The notes below the pieces were generated by a model. That model was not told where the DNA came from, searched no databases, and saw only the letters and a list, made by a program, of their open reading frames with translations. The position numbers were made by a program, and so were the translations under genes. From Methanosarcinaceae archaeon (GTDB lineage: Archaea > Halobacteriota > Methanosarcinia > Methanosarcinales > Methanosarcinaceae), in contig JAQUFK010000002.1 in the NCBI GenBank assembly GCA_028684695.1, positions 1-37,295 on the forward strand: 37,295 bases of DNA. The letters are read 5' to 3'. Shown in pieces: positions 6,482 to 34,009 of this stretch (position 1 is the first letter of the stretch; every line of letters starts with the position of its first letter).

Positions 6482-6949
6482 TTAATTAAAGATGAGAGGA
6501 GAAAGGCTTAACTTCTGAATTAGTTGTATTGACTCTTTATTTATTATATACACATTCAGACAATCTCCTTCCTTGACTTTTATTCCCCATTTTTTGGACA
6601 TATCAATTTCTACAAGCTCTCCTAGTTCCCAGTAGCCTTTCTTTTCCAAAACCTTGCTTATATTTTCCAAACTCTCCTTTCTTTTATCTTCATTTATAGT
6701 AATTACAATATCCACTTTTTCCACATCGATTTCTTCTCCTCCACAATGCCGGATGTACAGAGTACTTGAGGCGGGGTTTGCCCAACCTTCAACATCGAAA
6801 TTAAAAGTTTGCGGCGGGGGCTGAAGGTTTGAAAACACAAACAAACCAAGGGTTCCAAGCATAAGAACCACAATACATGTAAGCAGCGTTTCCCCTATTA
6901 TTCCTGAAACAGCCCTTGAATCTTCCATTAAGGCTTTTGAGAGCCGCAC
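6482..6949 (-). CDS. Divergent type IV pilin-like protein
   Basis: DSRAVSGIIGETLLTCIVVLMLGTLGLFVFS prepilin-like signal; YIRHCGGEEIDVEKVDI resembles the HxGGxxI motif of the other pilins. Confidence 0.7.
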   Translation of the reverse strand: MRLSKALMEDSRAVSGIIGETLLTCIVVLMLGTLGLFVFSNLQPPPQTFNFDVEGWANPASSTLYIRHCGGEEIDVEKVDIVITINEDKRKESLENISKVLEKKGYWELGELVEIDMSKKWGIKVKEGDCLNVYIINKESIQLIQKLSLSPLIFN

Positions 6950-11355: not shown

Positions 11356-11407
11356 GTGAACTACCCCTGAGCTAAAGACTCAGGGGGTTTACGCTGCGTT
11401 CTATAAA
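11356..11407 (-). repeat. ~52 bp dispersed hairpin repeat, copy 1 (IS200/IS605 right-end-like)
   Basis: gtgaactacccctgagctaaagactcagggggtttacgctgcgttctataaa; matches the copies at 16765 and 32204. Confidence 0.75.
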
Positions 11408-16764: not shown

Positions 16765-16816
16765 TTTATAAAACGCAGCGTAAAATCCCTGAGGCTTTAG
16801 CCCTAGGGTAGTTCTT
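16765..16816 (+). repeat. ~52 bp dispersed hairpin repeat, copy 2
   Basis: tttataaaacgcagcgtaaaatccctgaggctttagccctagggtagttctt. Confidence 0.75.
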
Positions 16817-31664: not shown

Positions 31665-31812
31665 AGCTCCCTGGGAGGGAGGACTTCGTAAAGCGAAGCC
31701 TACAATTCCTTACCCTTCCCGTTAGGTTCTGAATTGTGACATCAGCTTCCTTTTGGGAATCGGATAGAGAAAGCTACGAAGGCTTTAGCTTAGTGAGAGT
31801 TCACTAGATATT
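31665..31812 (+). mobile_element. Candidate IS200/IS605-family remnant (right-end-like RNA hairpins, no tnpA/tnpB)
   Basis: Hairpin-rich non-coding stretch ending gctacgaaggctttagcttagtgagagttcac, resembling the GGCTTTAGCC..AGTTCAC right-end style of IS200/IS605 elements. Confidence 0.45.
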
Positions 31813-32203: not shown

Positions 32204-32255
32204 GTAAACTACTCCTGAGCTAAAGTCTCAGGGGTTTTACGCTGCGTACTATAAA
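32204..32255 (-). repeat. ~52 bp dispersed hairpin repeat, copy 3
   Basis: gtaaactactcctgagctaaagtctcaggggttttacgctgcgtactataaa. Confidence 0.75.
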
Positions 32256-32292: not shown

Positions 32293-33093
32293 TCAGAAAA
32301 AACTTGCTGTAGGCAGAAGGTGCGGAAGAATTCCAAACAGGAAAACGTTTATGAATCCATGTAAAAGCGTGATAAAAAAAAGGTTTCTTGTTTTCTGGAA
32401 GGTATACCCAATAATAAGTCCTACAAAAGCCGTATAGCACATTTCGTATGGAGTTCCGTAACCCGAGTGCATAAACCCGAATAAAAGGCTTGTTAAAATC
32501 AGACCTTTTTTTGCTCCTAAGCTTTCTTCTAGTCTGGTTTGGAGAATCGACCTGAAGATAATTTCTTCTATTAAGCCTACAAAAAGGACCATTATAATTG
32601 TGAGTTTGAGTATATTTATAATAGAAAGATTGGGAATGAGAGCAGCTGCATGAAGGATGGAATATTCGCCGTATCCGAGCAAAAAACCGAAAGGAATTGC
32701 TAGGATTGTAAGAGTACAATTTCTTTTTTTGTTGAAAATGAGTCCCATTTGCTCTCTGGATAAATGCTGAGCTCTTAAAACCAGAGCCACCGGGATTGCA
32801 AGTGTTCCGTAGATAAAGAGAAATGAATATAATGTAGCCTCAAAAAAAACAGGGATTGAAAGGTTTATTAGGCGCAGGAGAGGCAAGAGGGTCAGAGCTT
32901 GATGGATCCTGTTTATCTGTCTATTTTTGATAAAGGCTGTAGAAAAGGTAAGCGCAACTACTATCCCCACATGCATCCAAGTTGTAGCCCCAACCTCTCC
33001 AATAAAAAGCAGACTTTCGGCAAAGGCAATGAAAAAGATGGGAATTGCAATTAAGAGATTTTCATTTTGGAAGTCCAGCTTTTCAGGAGGCAT
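32293..33093 (-). CDS. CPBP family intramembrane metalloprotease
   Basis: EEIIFRSILQTRL, FGFMHSGYG, HGFINVF motifs; start moved to internal ATG 33093 next to the upstream gene stop. Confidence 0.82.
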   Translation of the reverse strand: MPPEKLDFQNENLLIAIPIFFIAFAESLLFIGEVGATTWMHVGIVVALTFSTAFIKNRQINRIHQALTLLPLLRLINLSIPVFFEATLYSFLFIYGTLAIPVALVLRAQHLSREQMGLIFNKKRNCTLTILAIPFGFLLGYGEYSILHAAALIPNLSIINILKLTIIMVLFVGLIEEIIFRSILQTRLEESLGAKKGLILTSLLFGFMHSGYGTPYEMCYTAFVGLIIGYTFQKTRNLFFITLLHGFINVFLFGILPHLLPTASFF

Positions 33094-34009
33094 TAATCCC
33101 CCTCGATTCGTTTTTTCTATCTCTAGCTTCCCCCACATTTATCCAAAGGTGTAAATCGCGATAGGGTTTGGTTTTTTCGGTCTCATTAAAGAGCAAAAAC
33201 TCAAGCTTCAGAGCTCTTCCCTCAAAAGGAGGATTAATCTTAAGGCTCCGCTCCCATGTCTCATTATGCCTAAGAGTTATAAAGGCCTGGTCTTCTGGAA
33301 TTTCGAGGGAGACGTTTTCAAGCCTTAAGTCCATTGTGTAATTAAGGGTTCTGTATTCGTGATTCACAATTCCTACTATAACGGTTCTGCTTTCTCCTAG
33401 TAGGTACTCTGTTGGATAGTTGTCCGCCATTCCTTCTGGGCCTAAGATGTAAAATTCCGTGAAATGCTCCCCTTCCTTAGGGGAGACTATGACATAAAAA
33501 AGGGTCACGCCTGAAGCTAGAATGGATAGGACCAAAAGAAGTGTAAGCATTTTGTCGATTTTTGATTCAGGCTTTTCCAAAACTTCAGCCTTAAGAGCCA
33601 GCCAGTATGTTTTGAAGGAAATTTCAAAAGCTTTTTTCCCTTCTGGGAGATTTTTCCTTCTCCAGCCTGCAATTGCGCACATGAGGAGGGTAAAACTCGA
33701 AAGGCAAAAGAGTATTGGAAAAAGCCTGATTCCCCAAGGCGTGTAGTTAAGCCCCAAGCCTATAAGGGGTACAATTGCTATGTTCAGCCCAAAAGAGAGC
33801 GCAACTCTCTCAATTCCATCCAATTCCTTTTCCGAAATAAACAGGGCTGCTGTTAGCGCATAACCAGGAAGAAAGAGGACTAGGGGCAGGCCAAGTGCTG
33901 TCCGTATAACTGTATCGTTTAGGCCCGGTACTAGCAAGAATAAATTTGTTAAAAGCACCAGGCATACAACGCCCAGTAGATCCGATGGAATTGTTCTGTT
34001 TCCTCTCAT
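33083..34009 (-). CDS. DUF1616 domain-containing membrane protein
   Basis: TM-rich N-terminus, then YVIVSPKEGEHFTEFYILGPEGMADNYPTEYLLGESRTVIVGIVNHEY. Confidence 0.82.
   Translation of the reverse strand: MRGNRTIPSDLLGVVCLVLLTNLFLLVPGLNDTVIRTALGLPLVLFLPGYALTAALFISEKELDGIERVALSFGLNIAIVPLIGLGLNYTPWGIRLFPILFCLSSFTLLMCAIAGWRRKNLPEGKKAFEISFKTYWLALKAEVLEKPESKIDKMLTLLLVLSILASGVTLFYVIVSPKEGEHFTEFYILGPEGMADNYPTEYLLGESRTVIVGIVNHEYRTLNYTMDLRLENVSLEIPEDQAFITLRHNETWERSLKINPPFEGRALKLEFLLFNETEKTKPYRDLHLWINVGEARDRKNESRGINAS

Follow-up and report, generated by a model that had tools for sequence, protein, structure and literature searches.

Terminal-only 52-bp PATEs were described in Haloquadratum walsbyi, where they comprise a core-deleted form of HqIRS46 and a PATE derived from ISHwa23 (Dyall-Smith et al. 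2011, PMC3119063). The Haloquadratum forms arise by repeat-mediated deletion between near-terminal palindromes, and whether they move later was posed as a question (PMC3119063). Insertion of IS200/IS605 elements occurs 3' of a short, fixed target sequence, which remains at the left flank (TTAC for IS608); in IS608, each hairpin is preceded on its 5' side by a guide that base-pairs with the cleavage site (PMC5934647).

The stretch of DNA analyzed here (the window, 37,295 nt) is contig C74 of a 1.97-Mb MAG (G000), which is 83.5% complete. Three 52-bp hairpin copies, hereafter minis, were located where the original prediction had placed them (Table 1). The architecture given for them was recovered in the three copies, except that the one at 16765 is decayed, with a broken stem and an altered right end. 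Copy 3 is found 37 nt past the stop codon of a CAAX-protease-like gene (32293-33138, minus strand), and a possible fourth, right-end-like relic was found at 31770. The gapped pattern ACGCAGCGTAAA-N3-7-CCTGAG-N0-2-CTTTAGC had three matches in the whole MAG, all in the window contig, and none in the reversed control; a looser search found approximately 40 related places genome-wide. The covariance model, built from 24 copies, gave 81 matches in the MAG and 91 in the sister genome, numbers that pool minis, left ends, and right ends. Copies outside the training set scored 50-65 bits.

Table 1. Coordinates of the minis, their parts, and the right-end variants. Positions are those of the window unless a contig is named; copies 1 to 3 were in the training set of the covariance model, so their E-values are optimistic.
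Feature	Location	Strand	Model score	DNA-fold z
Copy 1, best preserved	11356-11407	-	81.6 bits (E 2e-20)	-3.8
Copy 1, TTTAT target/left cleavage site	11403-11407	-		
Copy 1, left-end stub AGAACGCAGCGTAAA	11388-11402	-		
Copy 1, shared hairpin CCCCTGAG-TCTTTAG-CTCAGGGG	11364-11386	-		
Copy 1, right-end tail TAGTTCAC	11356-11363	-		
Copy 2, decayed: mismatched hairpin arm, right end TTCTT not TTCAC	16765-16816	+	64.9 bits (E 1e-15)	-0.2
Copy 3, single stem mismatch, right end TTTAC	32204-32255	-	75.2 bits (E 1e-18)	-2.1
Tentative member: weak, decayed right-end-only relic GCTACGAAGGCTTTAGCTTAGTGAGAGTTCAC	31770-31804	+	19.9 bits (E 0.0035)	
Right-end variant CTTTAG...GGGGTAGTTCAC	contig C60			
Right-end variant CTTCAG...GGGGTAGTTCAC	contig C96			
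Right-end variant TTCGGGGCGAGTTCAC	contig C187			

The mini is a left-right fusion, consisting of a left stub, one hairpin, and a right tail. In the resident IS200/IS605 tnpA-tnpB elements, the left 20 bases of the mini (TTTAT followed by AGAACGCAGCGTAAAA) form the left end, the final 8 bases (TAGTTCAC) form the right end, and the hairpin is common to both. The full-length element at contig C60 of the MAG (4375-2668, minus strand) contains a left end (TTTATAGGACGCAGCGTAAAACCCCTGGGTCTTTAGCCCAGGGGATATAAGCGTC), tnpA on the opposite strand, tnpB, and a right end (GAAGCCCCTGAGTCTTTAGCTCAGGGGTAGTTCAC). The left end reads TTTATAGGACGCAGCGTAAAA-hairpin-ATATAAGCGTC and the right end GAAG-hairpin-TAGTTCAC, with tnpA and tnpB divergent in between, and the two 23-bp hairpins are near-identical direct repeats. 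The matches in the MAG fall into two classes by the sequence 3' of the hairpin. Members of the first class continue from GGGG into ATATAAGCGTC and represent left ends of longer elements; six matches to tnpA and several to tnpB adjoin these ends or lie nearby. In members of the second class, the minis (at least 44 read), TAGTTCAC or GAGTTCAC comes immediately after the hairpin, and the DNA beyond it is unrelated.

The 3' part, originally likened to an IS200/IS605 right end, is identical to the right end of the tnpA-tnpB element at C60, and the ends of the full-length or partial elements at C60, C96, and C187 match those of minis. Solo ends had been proposed as well. Solo right ends were ruled out, because the 5' part (the left 20 bp) matches the left end of the same full elements and the copies are thus left-right fusions. 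Neither tnpA nor tnpB was found in the window contig, in agreement with the original prediction, and the Y1 TnpA that marks an autonomous IS200/IS605 element is likewise missing there. The mini is too short for a transposase gene, and it has a palindrome near its termini and no terminal inverted repeats. Of the classes suggested at the outset, a MITE-like (PATE) derivative fits best: the termini match IS605-type ends, and there is neither target duplication nor a gene. The minis are very probably transposase-less, terminal-only, single-hairpin deletion derivatives of the resident IS200/IS605 (tnpA + tnpB) elements of approximately 1.7 kb, and the shared hairpins suggest that they would have originated by deletion of the core of the full element.

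Alignment of the copies gave a sharp start at TTTAT and a sharp stop at TTCAC, with unrelated flanks. The information content climbs from approximately 0.1 to 1.6-2.0 bits at TTTAT and is back to background right after TTCAC (n = 35). Segmental duplication was excluded, as common flanks were limited to one 17-bp chance match. Of 35 copies, 34 are located between genes, whereas ORFs cover 78% of the sequence.

Two empty sites were read at base level in Methanosarcina relatives. At the first, genome G062 reads GATTTAT/GTAGAGAA and genome G087 GATTTAT/47 bp/GTGGAGAA (slashes mark the joins); in the wider context, G062 has ...TTTGTTTGATTTAT/GTAGAGAAG and G087 ...TTTGTTTGATTTAT/ATGACG...GTTCAT/GTGGAGAAC. 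This G087 mini is missing at the orthologous place in both G062 and G064. At the second site, a G062 mini is absent from G064, where the join is equally exact and the target slightly diverged from TTTAT. Target duplication was seen at neither site. Insertion takes place, in the manner of IS200/IS605 elements, 3' of TTTAT or of a diverged form of it, and the target, which is not part of the mobile unit, is kept at the left flank without duplication. The join in a third Methanosarcina alignment (locus L218 vs G031) was too diverged for use. G001, the nearest genome and the only one of the same genus among the relatives covered (approximately 77-79% identical to the window in genes), has no copies at the two loci checked, 11356 and 16765, and the divergence of its intergenic DNA precludes reading a join at base level. 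At its locus orthologous to 16765 (L145, contig C61, 4197-5615), an extra gene is located between the two flanking genes; judged by eye, the product is GTP-binding metallochaperone-like with a long His/Pro/Glu repeat tail.

The stem showed covariation, with 18 cells changed on both sides vs 5.3 in shuffles (0 of 500 as high), and the signal falls when slid. It was weak in the first 24-copy set alone and strong only after other genera had been added; the compensatory stem pairs across genera are TGAG/CTCA, TAAG/CTTA, and CGAAG/CTTCG. The loop of the shared hairpin is CTTTA. The TAAA(A) found 5' of the mini hairpin is complementary to TTTA of TTTAT and is a putative left guide. The GGAAG that precedes the hairpin of full-length right ends is complementary to TTC of TTCAC and is probably the right guide. 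As far as can be judged from base complementarity, the mini would have kept the left guide and lost the right one, and it also lacks the pairing 3' of the left hairpin (the second left stem). Unusual hairpin arrangements were observed at a few places in the MAG. One mini (contig C5, 14477-14528, L095) has an inverted hairpin loop: a left stub of the usual form is followed by CCCCTGAGCTAAAGACTCAGGGG and then by TAGTTCAC, an order resembling the outcome of a palindrome flip during replication. Right-end-only palindromes (GTGAACTACCCC-hairpin-GGGGTAGTTCAC), in which the right-end tail flanks one hairpin on both sides and a left stub is missing, are present on contigs C186 (2255-2293, L113/L271) and C96 (right end at 6869, L106/L272).

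At least 44 minis were counted in the MAG vs approximately 15 recognised left ends of longer elements (about 3:1), although breaks of the MAG at repeats leave this left-end sample incomplete. In the part of G001 that was sampled, the relation was the opposite. At least three right-end variants (Table 1) are found both in minis and in elements that are full-length or partial, and one longer element (C69:38844) has at its left end the ACTCAGCG variant that is usual in CTTCAG minis. Therefore, at least three related parents gave rise to minis. Intact full-length TnpA was not found in the MAG (83.5% complete): among the tnpA loci on contigs C60, C98, C119, C162, and C166, the C60 locus is interrupted by two stop codons, and matches at the remaining four are confined to the first 71 of the 121 profile positions. 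Even so, this genome is rich in longer elements and minis. A parent element in Methanosarcina genome G068 encodes a TnpA of 134 aa (PF01797, E 2e-36) and a TnpB of 370 aa (PF01385/PF07282/PF12323) and is multi-copy, with three copies 98-99% identical over 1688 bp; with both proteins intact, it is apparently autonomous.

With the thresholds used, and with left and right ends included, model matches were obtained in 17 of 60 relatives and in 23 of 31 Methanosarcina genomes. Reading of the best matches revealed true minis in several Methanosarcinaceae genera. One mini is present with the same flanks in both G031 and G081; some minis have thus persisted long enough to be passed on by descent. Several minis or left ends (L218, L222) were located on contig C1 of the two-contig genomes G087 and G062, including three of the seven model matches listed for G087; contig C1 is possibly a plasmid in these genomes.

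For the origin of the minis, we infer the following route. An IS605 element would insert 3' of TTTAT through TnpA-mediated single-strand transposition, and repeat-mediated deletion or template switching between its two hairpins would then collapse it to 52 bp. Everything between the left-end and right-end hairpins would be lost, and the two 23-bp hairpins would become one. Some of the collapsed forms may move again, with TnpA acting in trans. No site was found with the full element in one genome and the 52-bp form in a close relative.

Two accounts differ in what follows the collapse. The minis may be scars only, each one collapsed independently in place by recombination or slippage between the hairpins and immobile afterwards, to which we assign slightly less than an even chance. 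The near-identical hairpins are a substrate for such deletion, the same event was seen between two Haloquadratum strains (PMC3119063), and minis derive from at least three parent end-types. What speaks against this account is that minis exceed longer forms in number in the MAG and that a subset of them has a derived base in common: an A to C change just 5' of the stem, present in approximately 8 minis at unrelated sites and not seen in the examined left ends of longer elements in G000 or the sampled G001, a change that probably arose after fusion.

Both observations point instead to a mini that is itself mobile, a REP-like minimal transposon in which TnpA in trans moves the 52-bp unit (47 bp mobile) and the single hairpin serves both ends. 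This account, which we hold as plausible yet tentative, is also in line with the empty sites, which indicate recent insertion, with the strong model matches read in G062 and G061, which are minis, with a stem pairing that is still covarying, and with six strain-specific ISHwa23 insertions in Haloquadratum, all of 52 bp (PMC3119063). However, re-mobilisation is mechanistically awkward, because the right guide (GGAAG) and the second left stem have apparently been lost, and the known TnpA is a dimer on two hairpins (PMC5934647). Moreover, full-length insertion followed by collapse yields an identical empty-site picture. The shared derived base and the mini excess in G000 suggest that some minis spread after fusion and are hints that the mini-form itself has moved; mobility is graded with caution, because the right guide is lost and the left-end sample incomplete. 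If the fused 47-bp unit were mobile, TnpA in trans would need no more than a single hairpin, one left guide, and two cleavage sites; the unit would then rank with the smallest mobile DNAs known and would be an archaeal equivalent of REP sequences.

Adoption by the host, with the hairpin retained close to gene ends as a terminator or regulatory RNA, is improbable. Nearly all copies are intergenic and many are <100 bp from a gene end, but they vary in orientation and in placement relative to genes, and conservation extends beyond the hairpin to span both cleavage sites. Least probable are free-standing, omega-RNA-like scaffolds programming TnpB in trans, a reading raised by the original prediction and left unsupported. 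The final hairpin and TAGTTCAC do agree with the 3' end of the right end next to tnpB. However, no copy has the omega-RNA scaffold upstream of it (approximately 100 nt or more expected; a tnpB 3'/omega-RNA region of approximately 110 nt in the full-length right end), and the DNA on the 5' side of TTTAT shows no relation from one copy to the next. The abrupt start at TTTAT is the signature of a DNA insertion, and one window copy has a broken stem. A known RNA family was rejected as well, as the window gave no Rfam match.

The window elements are thus ordinary but well-defined terminal-only IS605 remnants. Their identification as fused ends accounts for dozens of puzzling 52-bp hairpins in Methanosarcinaceae genomes, removes guide RNAs as a false lead, and extends terminal-only PATEs beyond haloarchaea. 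The minis are also a clean, high-copy system for the question of 2011, i.e., whether a single-hairpin IS605 remnant is still able to transpose.

Among known systems, full-length IS200/IS605 (tnpA-tnpB) and IS1341-type (tnpB-only) elements of Methanosarcinaceae share with the mini the left end, hairpin, right end, TTTAT target, and TTCAC boundary, whereas tnpA, tnpB, the omega-RNA region, the right guide, and the second left stem are missing from the mini. TnpB omega-RNA has the terminal hairpin and 3' end in common with it, but not the upstream scaffold. Bacterial REP sequences mobilised by TnpA-REP are similar in being single small hairpins, dispersed, intergenic, and linked to a Y1 transposase (PMC8266576). 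In contrast to REP, the 5' foot of the mini hairpin has no GTAG and is preceded by TAAA(A), no dedicated single-copy TnpA-REP is known for minis, and both IS605 cleavage sites are kept. The resemblance to the Haloquadratum PATEs comprises the 52-bp length, IS605-type left and right termini fused at a shared palindrome (19-22 bp there), and the lack of terminal inverted repeats, target duplication, and genes. The host order and the sequences differ, in-place collapse was observed directly in Haloquadratum (PMC3119063) and not here, and the minis occur in dozens of copies, with at least three end variants, in several genera. While the kind itself has been known since 2011 from salt-loving archaea, terminal-only PATEs in Methanosarcinaceae, with at least three end variants and at high copy, are new.
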